A stretch of 37,112 nucleotides of DNA from Patescibacteria group bacterium (lineage in GTDB: Bacteria > Patescibacteriota > Minisyncoccia > Phycocordibacterales > SIBU01): the NCBI GenBank assembly GCA_040390045.1, contig JAZJZC010000002.1, positions 1 to 37,112 of the forward strand. The letters are read 5' to 3'. Numbering within the stretch: position 1 is the stretch's first letter; every line of letters begins with the position of its first letter. The notes under the pieces were generated by a model. The model ran no database searches. It saw only the letters and a program-made list of their open reading frames with translations, and had not been told where the DNA came from. The translations under genes and the position numbers were made by a program. Of this stretch, positions 5,020-35,461 are shown one piece after another.

Positions 5020-5289
5020 ATGAGCGCACTCACATTACACGAGATACCACATTCTGGTTTCTCAATCCACGCAGTTCTTTGTTCTTGCGACAGCGAGCCC
5101 AGGACATTTGAGTTTGAAATACTCGACACGGGACACGTGAGGTGTCCGAAATGTTATCATATCCTTGTGTTTTGCAAGCATTGCAGCACTTTCACTGCTG
5201 ACCAACGAGGAGAAGAAAATTTTTCCATTGAGTTTGGTAGCGGTCACACTTGGGTATGTTTCGGCTGCGGTAAACCGAAGTATGCGTGA
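5020..5289 (+). CDS. small cysteine-rich (double zinc-ribbon-like) protein
   Basis: An 89-residue protein with four CxxC-type pairs: CSC (22-24), CPKC (42-45), CKHC (52-55) and CFGC (80-83). This suggests two zinc sites. It starts 37 bases after the preceding small zinc-ribbon gene, with no promoter or terminator between, so the two probably share the T-box-controlled transcript. A strong terminator follows, so this pair may be the whole T-box operon. No family recognised. Confidence 0.6.
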
Positions 5290-5301
5290 CAGATATGTAC
5301 A

Positions 5302-5354
5302 AAGTCTTTCCCCAATTTTGCACCTCGCTGCAAAATTGGGGAGGGCTTATTTTT
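5302..5354 (+). terminator. strong intrinsic terminator before trpB
   Basis: CCCCAATTTTGC (5310-5321) pairs perfectly with GCAAAATTGGGG (5330-5341). The stem extends outward with AAG(T)CTTT against AGGGCTT, and TTTTT follows at 5350-5354. It separates the T-box cassette from trpBA. Confidence 0.75.
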
Positions 5355-5384
5355 AAATTAAACCACTATAGGTTAATTAACAAA

Positions 5385-6611
5385 ATGAAAAAAACAAAAG
5401 AAAAATTTGACGGACATTTTGGAAAATTTGGTGGACGCTACGTTCCCGAAATGCTTATTCCCGCACTCGAAGAGCTTGAGGCTGAGTATGAAAAAGCCAA
5501 AAAAGATCCAGAATTTAAAAAAGAATTTGAGTATCACCTTGAAACGTTTTCTGGTAGACCAACGCCATTAACTTTCGCTAAAAATTTAACCGAAAAACTT
5601 GGTGGCGCGAAAATTTATTTTAAAAATGAAGGTCTTAATATTACCGGGGCGCACAAAATTACTCACTGCATCGGCCAAGCGCTTCTCGCTAAACGCATGG
5701 GTAAAACTACTCTGATTGCAGAAACTGGAGCGGGACAGCATGGTGTTGCTACGGCAACTGTAGCGGCTAAATTTGGATTTTCATGCAAAGTTTTTATGGG
5801 CGCAACGGATATGGCTCGCCAACGACCGAATGTTTTTTTGATGGAGCAACTAGGCGCCACTGTTATTCCTGTTGAGTTTGGTTCGAAGACCTTGAAAGAT
5901 GCGGTGAACGCTGCGCTTAAGGACTGGATTGAGAATGTTACAACCAGTCACTATCTTTTAGGTTCAGTGGTGGGACCACACCCATATCCTTCGATGACCA
6001 GAGATTTTCAAGCGGTGGTTGGGAGGGAAGTTCGAAAACAGATTGTAGAAGCTGAAGGAAAATTACCTGATTATATTATTGCGTGTGTTGGTGGTGGAAG
6101 TAACGCAATGGGAATTTTTAATGAATTTCTAGCTGACGCGTCGGTTACACTTTTTGGTGTTGAAGCTGGCGGACGAGGAAGAAAAGTTGGCGAACACGCC
6201 TCTCGTTTTAATGGCGGGTCGGTCGGAGTTGTCGAGGGTTTCAAGTCATTTTTCTTACAGGATGACGACGGACAAATTCAAAAAACTCATAGTATTTCGG
6301 CCGGACTTGATTATGCAGGAATCGGGCCCCAATTGGCATATCTAAAAGAGGAACGCAGGGTTGAATTTCATTCTGCGACTGACATTGAAGTGCTCGGAGC
6401 TTTCAAGCACTTGGCGCGAACAGAGGGAATTATTGCGGCGCTTGAGTCGCTTCATGCTGTAGCCTACGCTATAAAACTTGCCCCAAAACTTTCTAAGGAA
6501 AAAATTATTGTAGTGAATGTTTCAGGTCGAGGTGATAAGGATCTTTTTATTCTGACGGAAGCTCTCAATGACCAGGGGTTCAAAGATTTTTTACGAACAA
6601 AAGTACAATAA
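5385..6611 (+). CDS. trpB: tryptophan synthase beta chain
   Basis: This 408-residue enzyme joins indole and L-serine to make L-tryptophan using pyridoxal phosphate, in the cytoplasm and normally as an alpha2-beta2 complex with TrpA. The start [20 protein letters not shown] matches TrpB N-termini, so I reject the upstream in-frame extension to 5286, which translates the terminator. Lys91 in TGAHK is the cofactor lysine, Glu113 in AETGAGQHG is the catalytic acid, and GGGSNA binds the phosphate. Full length. trpA follows after four bases. A terminator lies just upstream; a weak TATAGG near 5370 may provide a private promoter, or T-box readthrough may reach it. No other trp genes are in the window. 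Confidence 0.97.
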
Positions 6612-10825: not shown

Positions 10826-12307
10826 TTAATCGCTTAACCAGCTTATGATTTGATAGCCAGAAGACGAAAGAGGAAAACTTGGCGGAGGAGCATAGAGAAG
10901 ATTGCTGTCGTAGACGTCATTTGTCGTTTGATATCCCGAGGCGATGAGGCCAAGTGGAGTGACATATGACCACGTCCACTGACCAAACGACATGATTGAT
11001 CCGAAAATGGTAATGCTGTTTTTGACGTTTCCTGTGTGGTGGAAAATTTCAACACTACCATTTTGGGAGATCATGGCGGCATCAATTTCAATGTCGTTGG
11101 AGGAGTGACTTGTTACGACCACATCTTTTTGTGCAATTAATCCTAAAACATTTGTTCCGTCTTTGGCCGCATAGATGATGTTGTCTGGAATGTAAATAGT
11201 TGGAGCGGTCGCAGGATTATATGGCAGGAGTGCCGCGGCAACTGTTGCGCGTCCATTGACCGTACCCTCTACCCACACTTTATCCTCAACATAAATGATG
11301 CCGTTGGCAGGGATTGCTTGGGTAAATTGTAGACTTCTGTTGTTGTAATCAGTAAACTCGTTGTGAGCGACGCCGTTTACATCCCAGCCTGGCAGATTTC
11401 CTTTTAAATTTGTCACTTTGTAAACACTGACAGTACCAGCGGCATTAAATACCAACGAGTACCCTTGAGCATTTGAAGGAGGAAGATACATTCCTCCACT
11501 TTGAGCGTTGCTTTTGATGCTTGCTAGATCTGATGTTAAGGAAGAGAAGTCAACGGCGGGTACAGGAAATTGCCAGAAATTTTTTACCGATTGATCCGCG
11601 TTACCCCAAACTCCGTTTTTGGTAGTAGGACACGGGTTACCTTGAGATGTGGGGCAGGTGTAGGTGGATTTTGCAGAACCTATCGGCGCATTGCCAACAC
11701 CATCAAAACGTACGCCGTTGTTTGATTGTAATTCTCCACTGACCGTTTCCATGTCGCCAATCCAAATCACATCGTTGCTCAGAAAAGAAAATTTTGCGAG
11801 TGATGGAATGCCGTAGCGTGCTGTAATGCTGCGCGTGATGTTGGGGTTGCGCGTGGTCGCTCCTTCGGATCTGATTGTGACGATTGTTGAGCCGGCTAGC
11901 GGTGGGGTAATGGTGAGGGTAAATTGACCAATGGTTTCTTGGGTATCGAAGTCGACATAGTTGTGGGTGTAGGGTCCGGTCGCATTTGTTCCGTCTTTAT
12001 AGTCGCTTGGAAAATGCGCGAGATGCCACTGATAATAATTTATTCCTGTTTCGGCGATTTGAAGGCTTTGTTCACGATCGATAGTTGCTACCAGTACTCT
12101 CACAGCTCCGGCGACAAAATTAATAACGGGAAGCATCATTAAAGAGAAAACAAAAATGATGACGAGGAGGTAGATCAAGGTGAAGCCACGAGGAGATGGA
12201 ACACGCAACACAGAACATGGAACAGGGGGAAGTGAGCGGGGAGAAGAAGCCCGCGCGCAAAGCGCGCGGGCTTCTTCTGGTTTTCTGTTACGTGTTCTAT
12301 GCTCCAT
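10826..12307 (-). CDS. large prepilin-like protein (type IV pilus minor pilin)
   Basis: The segment PRGFTLIYLLVIIFVFSLM is a type III-cleaved prepilin leader plus hydrophobic helix, with Tyr in place of the usual Glu5. The remaining ~440 residues are beta-rich and Asn/Thr/Gly-rich, and probably form a surface or tip domain. The longest frame starts at ATG 12307, but its first 40 residues are encoded by a heptamer array and a 17-bp hairpin (12196-12321), so they may not be real protein. A GTG at 12211 would give a nine-residue leader. Third gene of a reverse-strand prepilin operon. Confidence 0.8.
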   Translation of the reverse strand: MEHRTRNRKPEEARALCARASSPRSLPPVPCSVLRVPSPRGFTLIYLLVIIFVFSLMMLPVINFVAGAVRVLVATIDREQSLQIAETGINYYQWHLAHFPSDYKDGTNATGPYTHNYVDFDTQETIGQFTLTITPPLAGSTIVTIRSEGATTRNPNITRSITARYGIPSLAKFSFLSNDVIWIGDMETVSGELQSNNGVRFDGVGNAPIGSAKSTYTCPTSQGNPCPTTKNGVWGNADQSVKNFWQFPVPAVDFSSLTSDLASIKSNAQSGGMYLPPSNAQGYSLVFNAAGTVSVYKVTNLKGNLPGWDVNGVAHNEFTDYNNRSLQFTQAIPANGIIYVEDKVWVEGTVNGRATVAAALLPYNPATAPTIYIPDNIIYAAKDGTNVLGLIAQKDVVVTSHSSNDIEIDAAMISQNGSVEIFHHTGNVKNSITIFGSIMSFGQWTWSYVTPLGLIASGYQTTNDVYDSNLLYAPPPSFPLSSSGYQIISWLSD

Positions 12308-12321
12308 GTTATATGTTTCTT
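12196..12321. repeat. inverted heptamer arrays (GTTCCAT family) around a 17-bp GC hairpin
   Basis: The left arm has four 7-mers of ATGGAAC type (12196-12223). The right arm has five of GTTCTAT/GCTCCAT type (12287-12321), complementary in sense. Between them lies a perfect 17-bp hairpin (12242-12258 with 12262-12278, loop AAA). The element sits between two prepilin genes and overlaps the apparent 5' end of the downstream one. Confidence 0.75.
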
Positions 12322-15676: not shown

Positions 15677-16832
15677 ATTTAAAAAAATTGAGGACGCTCC
15701 TATTTCTTCCGGTACGAAGGTTTTACTTCGCCTTGATCTCAACGTGCCAATTGTGGATGGACAAGTTCGCGATGATTTTAGGATTAAAAAAAGTTTGAAA
15801 ACTTTAGAGTTTTTAAAAAATCGCGGAGCGAAAACGATTATCATCGCTCACACCGACAGCAAAGAAACTGACTCTCTGAAAGTGGTGGCTGAGTATCTCA
15901 ATACGATTATCAAAGTTGATTTTGTTCCCTCTTTAGAAGAACTCCCCGAGCGCCTTGGGGCGCTCGGGGACGGAGGAATTTTATTTTTGGAAAATATTCG
16001 CAACAATCCTGGAGAAATTAAAAATGATCTTCATTTTGCGCAGACGCTCGCTTCGCTTGCGGATATCTACGTTAATGACGCGTTTTCAGTTTCTCATCGT
16101 GCTCACGCTTCGATTGTTGGCATTCCAAATTTTTTGCCGAGTTACGCTGGATTTTTGTTTTGTGAGGAAGTGGTCCATGTGTCTCGAGCGTTTAATCCGC
16201 CGAGACCCTTCTTGTTTATCTTGGCTGGTGCAAATAAAAAATTAACCAGCACATCTTTGGTCTCTGAAACAAAATTTCCTCTTGTGACCAAGTTTTTAAA
16301 ATCGGCCGACTCTGTGTTTGTCGGCGGAGCGCTTGCCAACGACCTTTTCAAGGCTGAAGGTTTTGAAATCGGACACTCGAAACATTCTGAGTCTGATTTC
16401 GGTTTCGAGGCGATGTTGCACAATCCAAAACTACTATTACCGCTCGATGTTGTTGTGGGAGACCCTCAAAACAAAATTTCAAAAAAACCAAACCAAATTC
16501 TTCCTGAAGAAATTGTCTTTGATGCTGGGCAAGAAACCTTGACGATGCTCACTGAAAAATTAAAATCAGCTCAATTTGTTCTTTGGAATGGCACGATCGG
16601 TGCTTATGAACAAGGTTTCGTCGAAGGTACGGAAGCTTTAGCGAAGGCGATTGCAGAAAGCGGAGTTGAGGCGATTGTTGGTGGAGGAGACACGCTTGCG
16701 GCTATCGACAAATTGGCGTTGAACGATAAATTTTCTTTTGTTTCAACGGGTGGTGGAGCGATGCTTGATTTTTTGGCTAGCGAAACTCTGCCCGGCATTG
16801 CCGCGCTCGAAGCGAGCGCGGCTCATAACTGA
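15666..16832 (+). CDS. pgk: phosphoglycerate kinase
   Basis: This 388-residue glycolytic kinase transfers phosphate between 1,3-bisphosphoglycerate and ADP. It starts MQYKFKKIEDAPISSGTKVL and carries LLRLDLNVPI, the substrate segment VNDAFSVSHRAHAS, and the C-terminal nucleotide-binding IVGGGDTLAAID and STGGGAMLDFL. The ATG at 15666 overlaps tpiA. Two palindromes are read as protein: an 11-bp hairpin encoding PERLGALGDG in a loop (15943-15970), and a 10-bp hairpin encoding the extra C-terminal tail AALEASA (16800-16822). The usual GGAKVSDK loop is replaced by LAGANKKLTST. The core is intact, so it is probably active. Confidence 0.95.
   Translation: MQYKFKKIEDAPISSGTKVLLRLDLNVPIVDGQVRDDFRIKKSLKTLEFLKNRGAKTIIIAHTDSKETDSLKVVAEYLNTIIKVDFVPSLEELPERLGALGDGGILFLENIRNNPGEIKNDLHFAQTLASLADIYVNDAFSVSHRAHASIVGIPNFLPSYAGFLFCEEVVHVSRAFNPPRPFLFILAGANKKLTSTSLVSETKFPLVTKFLKSADSVFVGGALANDLFKAEGFEIGHSKHSESDFGFEAMLHNPKLLLPLDVVVGDPQNKISKKPNQILPEEIVFDAGQETLTMLTEKLKSAQFVLWNGTIGAYEQGFVEGTEALAKAIAESGVEAIVGGGDTLAAIDKLALNDKFSFVSTGGGAMLDFLASETLPGIAALEASAAHN
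15943..15970 (+). repeat. in-frame GC palindrome in pgk
   Basis: TCCCCGAGCGC (15943-15953) and GCGCTCGGGGA (15960-15970) form a perfect 11-bp stem with loop CTTGGG. It encodes a surface-loop segment of phosphoglycerate kinase. Confidence 0.7.
16800..16822 (+). repeat. GC palindrome encoding the pgk C-terminal tail
   Basis: GCCGCGCTCG pairs with CGAGCGCGGC around the loop AAG. It lies eight bases before the pgk stop codon and has no T-run, so it is not a standard terminator. Confidence 0.65.
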
Positions 16833-22124: not shown

Positions 22125-22143
22125 CTCTTAATTATCCTACTTA

Positions 22144-22178
22144 AATCTTGAATCATGAATCTTGAATCTAAAATCACT
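22144..22178 (+). repeat. heptamer array (AATCTTG family) across the rnhA start codon
   Basis: Five consecutive 7-mers: AATCTTG, AATCATG, AATCTTG, AATCTAA, AATCACT. The rnhA start codon is the ATG inside the second unit. Confidence 0.75.
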
Positions 22179-22931
22179 ATCTTCACCGACGGTTCTTCGC
22201 GAGGCAATCCAGGGCCGGGAGGGTTCGGCGCGATTGTCGTTTTTCCAAACGACAATCGCGAGATTCATGATTCAAGATTCATGATTCAAGAGGTTGGAGG
22301 CAGGGAAGCACACACCACTAACAACCGAATGGAATTACAAGCCGCAATTGCCGCGCTTTCTTTTGTTTCTACCCTAACCCCTAAACCCTATACCCTTCTG
22401 GTGTACTCCGACTCTTCCTACGTCATCAACGGCATTACGAAATGGGTTTTCGGTTGGCAGAAAAATGGTTGGATCACTGCAACTAAAAAAGAAGTGGAGA
22501 ATCGAGATTTGTGGGAGAGGCTCGCGGAACTGACGCGGAACTACGCGGGACAAACGCGGAATAAGATTGAGTGGAAGCAGGTTGCGGGACATGTTGGTGT
22601 GGCCGGAAATGAAAGGTGTGATGTTATCGCAACTGAATTTGCTGATGGTAAAAACCCAACATTATACCAAGGTTCGCTTGCAGAATATCCAATTAAAGGT
22701 GTGCTGAATCTGTACGATATATCGTACAAAAAGCTCGAAACAAAAAAAATCTCGAGATCTCACCAAAAAGCTACAGCGTACTCCTATGTTAGTTTGGTAG
22801 ACGGTACGGTTTTAGTTCACAAAACCTGGGCGGAGTGCGAAGCTCGGGTGAAAGGCAAAAAGGCCAAATATAAAAAGGTTTTGAGTTCGGAAGAAGAAAA
22901 AGATTTGGTTGATTTGTGGAGAAAAAATTAG
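22155..22931 (+). CDS. rnhA: ribonuclease HI with C-terminal hybrid-binding-like domain
   Basis: This 258-residue protein cuts RNA in RNA:DNA hybrids. The RNase H core (about 6-160) holds FTDGSS (Asp12), NRMEL (Glu60), YSDSS (Asp86), GHVGVAGNERCD (His146, Asp156). It carries extra segments where repeats enter the frame: 30-48 (hairpin plus GATTCAA heptamers), 73-81 (STLTPKPYT, from CCCTAAA heptamers) and 125-137 (CGCGGAA repeats). Residues about 205-258 (YVSLVDG, HKTWAECEARVKGKKAKYKKV) resemble the hybrid-binding/viroplasmin domain found N-terminally in eukaryotic RNase H1, so the domain order is reversed. The catalytic residues are intact. Confidence 0.9.
   Translation: MNLESKITIFTDGSSRGNPGPGGFGAIVVFPNDNREIHDSRFMIQEVGGREAHTTNNRMELQAAIAALSFVSTLTPKPYTLLVYSDSSYVINGITKWVFGWQKNGWITATKKEVENRDLWERLAELTRNYAGQTRNKIEWKQVAGHVGVAGNERCDVIATEFADGKNPTLYQGSLAEYPIKGVLNLYDISYKKLETKKISRSHQKATAYSYVSLVDGTVLVHKTWAECEARVKGKKAKYKKVLSSEEEKDLVDLWRKN
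22229..22289 (+). repeat. 14-bp hairpin plus GATTCAA heptamer array inside rnhA
   Basis: CGCGATTGTCGTTT and AAACGACAATCGCG form a perfect hairpin with loop TTCC (22229-22260). Four 7-mers follow (GATTCAT, GATTCAA alternating, 22262-22289), complementary in sense to the array at the rnhA start codon. All of it is translated. Confidence 0.75.
22371..22398 (+). repeat. CCCTAAA-type heptamer array inside rnhA
   Basis: Four 7-mers (ACCCTAA, CCCCTAA, ACCCTAT, ACCCTTC) encode TLTPKPYTL. The same family occurs at 29106-29174, 30847-30914 and 35434-35461. Confidence 0.75.
22523..22564 (+). repeat. CGCGGA array with 10/11-base period inside rnhA
   Basis: CGCGG begins at 22523, 22534, 22544 and 22555. 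The same word and period occur in the T-box leader at 4428-4463. Confidence 0.65.
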
Positions 22932-28766: not shown

Positions 28767-28855
28767 GAGATAGAAAATAAAAAATCCCCCGCCGCGCAAA
28801 GCGCGGCGGGGGATTTTTTCATTCTTGAATCTTTAATCGTGAATCCTGATTCTGT
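28759..28855. repeat. heptamer arrays on both sides of a 19-bp terminator hairpin
   Basis: GGGAATA, GGAGATA and GAAAATA (28759-28779) precede the hairpin and overlap the lactamase stop codon. ATTCTTG, AATCTTT, AATCGTG, AATCCTG and ATTCTGT (28821-28855) follow it and run up to the bL28 stop codon. The second arm belongs to the same family as the rnhA start array. Confidence 0.7.
28779..28819. terminator. bidirectional 19-bp terminator
   Basis: AAAAAATCCCCCGCCGCGC pairs perfectly with 28801-28819 around AAA. A-run and T-run flanks make it work for the lactamase gene on the plus strand and bL28 on the minus strand. Confidence 0.9.
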
Positions 28856-30846: not shown

Positions 30847-30914
30847 AGGGTATAGGGGTTAGGGTCTAGGAAAAATTCAGAAAACTAAACCCTTAACCCT
30901 CTACCCTAAACCCT
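30847..30914. repeat. inverted CCCTAAA-type heptamer arrays between rpsL and rpsG
   Basis: AGGGTAT, AGGGGTT and AGGGTCT (30847-30867) face AAACCCT, TAACCCT, CTACCCT and AAACCCT (30887-30914). The arms can form an imperfect hairpin inside what should be one transcript. Confidence 0.75.
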
Positions 30915-30923
30915 TCACCGAAA

Positions 30924-35427: not shown

Positions 35428-35433
35428 ATTACT

Positions 35434-35461
35434 ACACCCTAACCCCTATACCCTTAACCCT
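35434..35461 (+). repeat. CCCTAAA-type heptamer array before fusA
   Basis: Four 7-mers: ACACCCT, AACCCCT, ATACCCT, TAACCCT. Only one arm is visible; the fusA start codon lies 12 bases later. Confidence 0.75.

Follow-up and report, generated by a model that had tools for sequence, protein, structure and literature searches.

The rnhA gene described here raises the question of whether the short repeats that crowd its reading frame were inserted into the gene or belong to the ancestral protein and, if they were inserted, by what process. The gene lies in a window (the whole stretch of DNA analyzed, 37,112 nucleotides) from a 953-kb Patescibacteria genome (G000, here the source genome) whose named relatives are mainly Ca. 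Taylorbacteria. Useless DNA would be expected to disappear from small bacterial genomes, yet short repeats have entered the same loops of essential enzymes again and again and are tolerated.

Repeats within the rnhA reading frame

The product of the gene is an RNase HI. Its sequence matches PF00075 (E = 1.5 × 10−37), with the catalytic domain spanning about residues 5 to 161, and its structure model matches E. coli RNase HI in Foldseek (E = 1.8 × 10−17). The RNase H fold is present together with the Asp/Glu catalytic residues and the histidine; D12, E60, D86, H146, and D156 do not vary across an alignment of 51 RNase HI sequences. The expectation that the frame stays open and the catalytic residues are kept was therefore borne out. 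The AF2 model used throughout was built from the 51-sequence alignment (pLDDT 93.4) and replaced an earlier six-sequence model (pLDDT 54.9). At the C terminus, about residues 220 to 250 match a Cauli_VI (hybrid-binding-like) domain with a score at its cut-off. This RNase H1 N-terminal (hybrid-binding) type of domain usually stands at the N terminus; here it ends the protein (window positions 22770 to 22928), and a Cauli_VI-type C-terminal domain of RNase HI was also seen in the relatives L004 and L007.

The original prediction, made from the letters of the window, had placed the start codon of rnhA inside an AATCTTG array, a 14-bp hairpin and four GATTCAA units in frame downstream of it, a CCCTAAA array encoding STLTPKPYT, and a further repeat family past the stop codon. 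All of these were found as described (Table 1), the last as an AGCTNNN array. The hairpin is perfect, with a 4-nt loop, and the array at the start codon is the inverse of the S1 array, with which it shares a 23-nt exact inverted match; congeners have a similar array at the rnhA start. The CGCGGA repeats, expected at about residues 125 to 137, are present at residues 123 to 135, but their unit of 10 to 11 bp is no heptamer. Similarly, the claim that all segments fall in loops held in the 51-sequence model for S1 (residues 32 to 41, the β2-β3 turn) and S2 (residues 73 to 79, the αA-β4 loop) but not for the CGCGGA segment (S3), which forms the C-terminal part of helix αD (residues 117 to 134).

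Repeats of this strength are rare by chance. A period-7 array of the observed strength turned up once, singly, in 4,000 Markov-1 simulations of the 421-bp segment, and a 14-bp hairpin never did; the real segment has three such arrays, one of which merely overlaps its start.

Table 1. Features of the window, with positions counted from its first nucleotide
Feature	Position	Strand	Basis
rnhA, RNase HI, 258 aa	22155-22931	+	PF00075, AF2 model, Foldseek
Period-7 array AATCTTG/AATCATG over the rnhA start codon (22155)	22140-22169	+	TRF
Hairpin (22229-22260), left arm: ancestral coding DNA of strand β2 (GAIVV)	22229-22242	+	Conserved residues
Hairpin, 4-nt loop (22243-22246) and inverted-copy right arm (22247-22260), read NDNR	22243-22260	+	Own-strand templating test
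S1 array, GATTCAT/GATTCAA ×4, residues about 36-46, β2-β3 turn	22261-22291	+	
S2 array, CCCTAAA type, residues 73-81 (STLTPKPYT), αA-β4 loop	22371-22396	+	
S3, CGCGGA repeat, 10-11-bp unit, residues 123-135, end of helix αD	22523-22561	+	
AGCTNNN array directly past the rnhA stop codon	22934-22970	+	
Leader element of prepilin-like ORF (10826-12307): AACATGG-type array, 17-bp hairpin (12242-12278), inverted GTTCCAT-type array	12190-12310	−	
Intergenic TCTTGAA array, same family as the start-codon array	28823-28853	+	
Intergenic array, inverse of CCCTAAA	29104-29132	+	
Intergenic CCCTAAA-type array between two ribosomal protein genes	30888-30919	+	
Intergenic CCCTAAA-type array	35432-35461	+	

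Inserted and ancestral segments of rnhA

We compared rnhA orthologs from the order (n = 97) with a control set of 69 usable orthologs from other phyla. The extra residues of S1 and S2 are missing in most orthologs, and congeners carry different words at the same positions: L003 has a hairpin (GCCGTCATTATTTT/AAAATAATGACGGC) with GAAATCC words, L004 has a 22-bp hairpin with TTGAAAG words, and L005 has nothing comparable at these sites. Given this absence and the different words in congeners, S1 and S2 are inserts that the reading frame tolerates. Alignment with orthologs had been proposed at the outset as the check on ancestral origin, and the comparison with these 97 and 69 sequences did not bear that origin out for S1 and S2. 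In contrast, the CGCGGA segment, repeats included, is among congeners common to L004 only; this sharing and its 10- to 11-bp unit led us to treat it as a separate, older feature. The alternative that the segments are ancestral protein or chance sequence, with no insertion at all, may apply to S3, whose residues L004 shares, and is refuted for S1 and S2 by their distribution among orthologs, by the other words in relatives, and by the simulations above; as an account of the locus it is very improbable. Active, frame-tolerated insertion, as originally proposed, thus describes S1 and S2 and not the CGCGGA segment, which is of another kind.

Comparisons between close relatives show that S1/S2 inserts arose recently in several lineages. 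In L143, AGCG-type words stand at S1 and the inverse words at S2, and its congeners L010 and L147 have neither; the same picture, an inverted S1/S2 array pair versus none, was obtained for L007 and its congener L150, and L052 versus L132 is a further comparison that points to recent insertion. An inverted S1/S2 pair is also present in L139. Across all 97 orthologs, the inverse relation between S1 and S2 is weak (P = 0.19 at 8 nt; P = 0.03 at 9 nt), since few genomes carry both arrays. No target-site duplication was evident in the congener rnhA alignments, in which the high divergence could hide one. Insertion, frame tolerance, and repeated recent activity are well supported. A long S2 insert of a nonrepetitive kind was observed in the rnhA gene of G007 (L156), with 58 residues at this site versus a median of 13.

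The hairpin could be traced to the gene itself. At S1, 9 of the 97 orthologs from the order and none of the 69 others have a perfect hairpin of 12 bp or more; the left arm is the conserved β2 coding strand and the right arm is its inverse. When left arms were compared with the sequence on their own right side, matches of at least 8 nt were found in 11 of 97 orthologs (permutation mean, 0.8; maximum, 5; 5,000 permutations). The rnhA hairpin is no foreign element: the left arm is the ancestral coding strand for GAIVVF, and the sole new part is the right arm, an inverted copy. The insert right after β2 therefore begins with an inverted copy of the genome's own adjacent coding strand. Hairpin carriers are spread over about eleven families in the rnhA tree, making several independent gains likely, although their number is an impression only because the tree is weakly supported.

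Arrays and words across the order

The proposal that rnhA is a hot spot did not hold in the sense of a singular site, since mnmA and the genes for a pseudouridine synthase, a glycosyltransferase, and a prepilin-like leader carry like inserts, the latter three in the source genome. Of 28 readable mnmA orthologs, 14 have period-7 arrays in the loop between TGHYAR and NKDQSYF (one of these carriers, L228, is close to a simple purine run); the words are nearly all different, and short local hairpins are present in several orthologs. The prepilin-like leader contains a complete unit of array, hairpin, and inverse array. The finding is larger in extent than first noted, and rnhA exemplifies something seen across the order (Patescibacteria, Ca. 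Taylorbacteria and relatives), a populous group of very small, uncultured bacteria. Separately, we observed in the mnmA loop of G069 (L233) a 22-bp perfect palindrome, itself of an inverted unit, in frame in MnmA.

Stretches from 15 genomes contain 0 to 42 period-7 arrays per 100 kb, with other periods near zero; these densities are underestimates because highly degenerate arrays, AGCTNNN for example, escape the strict lag-7 scan. For other phyla, the density around rnhA is 0.7 per 100 kb. Most of the genomes are metagenome assemblies, from which an assembly or binning artifact might be suspected. However, the same pattern occurs, in frame and with hairpins of local sequence, in independent assemblies of many families, and array density in the genomes sampled follows clade, not assembly quality. 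We therefore regard an artifact as extremely improbable.

Arrays of 7-nt words occur beside a hairpin or alone, and those of the same word that lie close together are mutually inverted. Within 200 bp, 24 same-word pairs are inverted and 3 are direct, versus 53 and 58 for far pairs (Fisher P = 7 × 10−5); the gaps within inverted pairs are about 6 to 104 bp. Each word consists of a constant 4-nt core and three variable nucleotides, the minority fraction being 0.29 to 0.37 at the three variable positions versus 0.07 to 0.10 elsewhere, a difference that exceeds random phase assignment. These properties bear on slippage, in which chance 7-mers would grow by polymerase slippage, a mechanism put forward for long simple sequence repeats, and the hairpins would be a separate matter. 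In many bacteria, long repeats are most often heptanucleotides, and a polymerase contact of 7 nt has been proposed (Mrazek et al., as cited in PMC4679880). However, slippage predicts neither the inverted pairing, nor genome-specific vocabularies with a 4+3 word structure, nor hairpin arms joined to arrays, and plain slippage of a fixed unit gives no account of a core with three free positions. Slippage is an unlikely explanation.

Vocabularies differ between genomes. Two arrays share a word about threefold more often within a genome (0.151) than between genomes (0.053). Vocabularies differ even between congeners: AGCTNNN×4 occurs 55 times in the source genome and 0 times in its congener G003, and ATTCNNN×4 occurs 15 times in the source genome versus 53 times in G003 (reversed-pattern control, 0 in both genomes). 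Selection on signals could be invoked in two versions, one in which 4-nt cores at 7-nt spacing are binding sites and another in which inverted pairs act as RNA hairpins in termination or translation control; in both, the signals would now and then spread into coding DNA. Core positions are indeed far less variable than the other three, intergenic inverted pairs lie at gene ends, some with T-runs, and a regulatory role has been proposed for TAACTGA arrays in Beggiatoaceae (PMC4679880). On the other side, the arrays sit in loops of unrelated enzymes, congeners' words differ at the same site, vocabularies turn over within one genus, and selection inserts no DNA. The two versions together are unlikely.

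The inverted doublets recall REPINs, and RAYT-type transposases were considered for that reason. Under such a model, inverted doublets would form a single-stranded DNA hairpin that is moved in trans by a Y1 (RAYT-type) transposase. The arrays resemble REPINs and BIMEs with RAYT in having inverted doublets within about 100 bp, a short spacer, the capacity to form hairpins, and words shared genome-wide (PMC3116915), and Y1_Tnp genes were found in 10 of 15 genomes searched, including array-rich ones. However, neither the source genome nor G081, both array bearing, has a Y1_Tnp match; arrays lie close on the flank of 1 of 20 Y1_Tnp genes inspected; and we saw no conserved REP palindrome. Apart from one duplicated gene start, spacers within inverted pairs are unlike each other, which led us to reject the idea that spacers move along with arrays. 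At rnhA the S1/S2 spacer is native gene sequence, so that a single moved unit cannot explain the pair. A RAYT/Y1 transposase as mobilizer was thus not supported in these 15 genomes and 20 flanks, and mobile elements of the REPIN kind are an unlikely source. Many relatives (L311 to L330) have 2 to 4 solitary Y1_Tnp (TnpA-like) genes of 210 to 250 amino acids with no neighboring arrays. A reverse transcriptase was likewise rejected as the writer, being absent in the source genome and in array-bearing G104 and G058.

Proposed fold-back template switching and related systems

The explanation we favor, tentatively, is an ongoing DNA process that acts genome-wide throughout the order, probably combines fold-back template switching with 7-nt iteration, and is tolerated in surface turns. 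Both hairpins and arrays would arise from fold-back template switching during DNA synthesis, when the nascent strand pairs back on itself and copies upstream sequence in inverted form. A loop of 2 to 6 nt would yield a palindrome, and a loop of about 100 nt would yield an inverted array pair; copying would iterate in 7-nt steps before returning to the template. Absence of the hairpin nuclease SbcCD and of MutS mismatch repair may be what lets the products persist. Within genes, in-frame insertions in surface turns would be the only ones to be seen, which would leave RNase HI functional. This account draws on comparison of genomes, no insertion event having been caught directly, and is about as likely as not. 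If it is true, the inserts document template switching as it occurs in nature when SbcCD and MutS are lacking, and they supply new protein loops.

The repair genes are rare throughout the order, with SbcD above the cut-off in 1 of 247 genomes and MutS in 3 to 4 of 247. The MutS-bearing genomes G005 and G188 have 2 arrays in 402 kb, and their MutS-less family mates G091, G148, and G220 have no ATTCNNN or AGCTNNN arrays. Loss of MutS as the switch for arrays was rejected, since this family (f3) is array poor with or without MutS. The scarcity of arrays in f3 is probably a clade effect, and repair loss is at most permissive.

Local fold-back leaves without account the same few words at many loci of one genome, and the spread of a word family would require an additional trans-acting step. 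It is possible, though unlikely, that a dedicated trans-acting process writes 7-nt words (a fixed 4-nt core and three free nucleotides) as inverted array pairs. Such a process would include the genome-specific vocabulary and fold-back copies of the target, would act in intergenic DNA and tolerated loops of essential enzymes, and would represent a DNA-writing or mobile element of a class whose only conserved sequence is the core. If true, this would amount to a genetic element of a new kind.

Palindromic DNA that enters protein genes in frame and is tolerated is familiar from the Rickettsia palindromic elements, which form families of about 100 to 150 bp with a shared consensus. In-frame insertion in protein genes (rnhA, mnmA) is a likeness to these elements; in contrast, the hairpins here have no shared palindrome consensus, each copying its own gene. 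Perfect inverted repeats in coding genes that keep their function are also known in Nematomorpha mitochondria (PMC6649704); there, both arms encode conserved protein, whereas in the present hairpins conservation is confined to one arm, the other forming an added loop beside heptamer arrays. Tandem repeats of Borgs are similarly recent, both intergenic and genic, and add new protein segments (PMC9879509), but their units are perfect head-to-tail copies in archaeal extrachromosomal elements, unlike the degenerate 7-mers and inverted pairs of these bacterial chromosomes.

The closest likeness in unit length is to the STRR/heptamer arrays of cyanobacteria, Xanthomonas, and Beggiatoaceae (PMC4692102, PMC4679880), which share with the arrays described here a 7-bp unit and degenerate tandem copies that are scattered through the genome and mostly, though not exclusively, intergenic. 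Reports of STRR-type arrays describe a single fixed word or a small set of them per genome, for the most part in direct orientation and between genes. Here, the words are many and have a 4+3 structure, arrays form inverted pairs and adjoin local hairpins, and the same enzyme loops have been entered repeatedly. Heptamer arrays are thus already known, and the in-gene, hairpin-linked, inverted-pair form appears to be new: a search of the open-access literature found no report of this combination in Patescibacteria. The order comprises hundreds of genomes whose vocabularies differ at shared sites, which makes testable the old question of why heptamers are the favored long repeat of bacteria.

Several further structures were noted. 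The pgk coding sequence contains a perfect 12-bp hairpin at window positions 15943 to 15970 (TCCCCGAGCGCC-TTGG-GGCGCTCGGGGA), possibly another fold-back insert. A perfect 14-bp hairpin with a 6-nt loop (window positions 5309 to 5342) lies in the called 5′ extension of trpB (ORF 5286 to 6611), probably upstream of the true trpB start. Finally, two ORFs of G104 about 1.9 kb apart (L250:370-500 and L250:2250-2390) have the same leader of array, spacer, and inverse array, both with an identical 36-bp spacer and a prepilin-like motif at the end.
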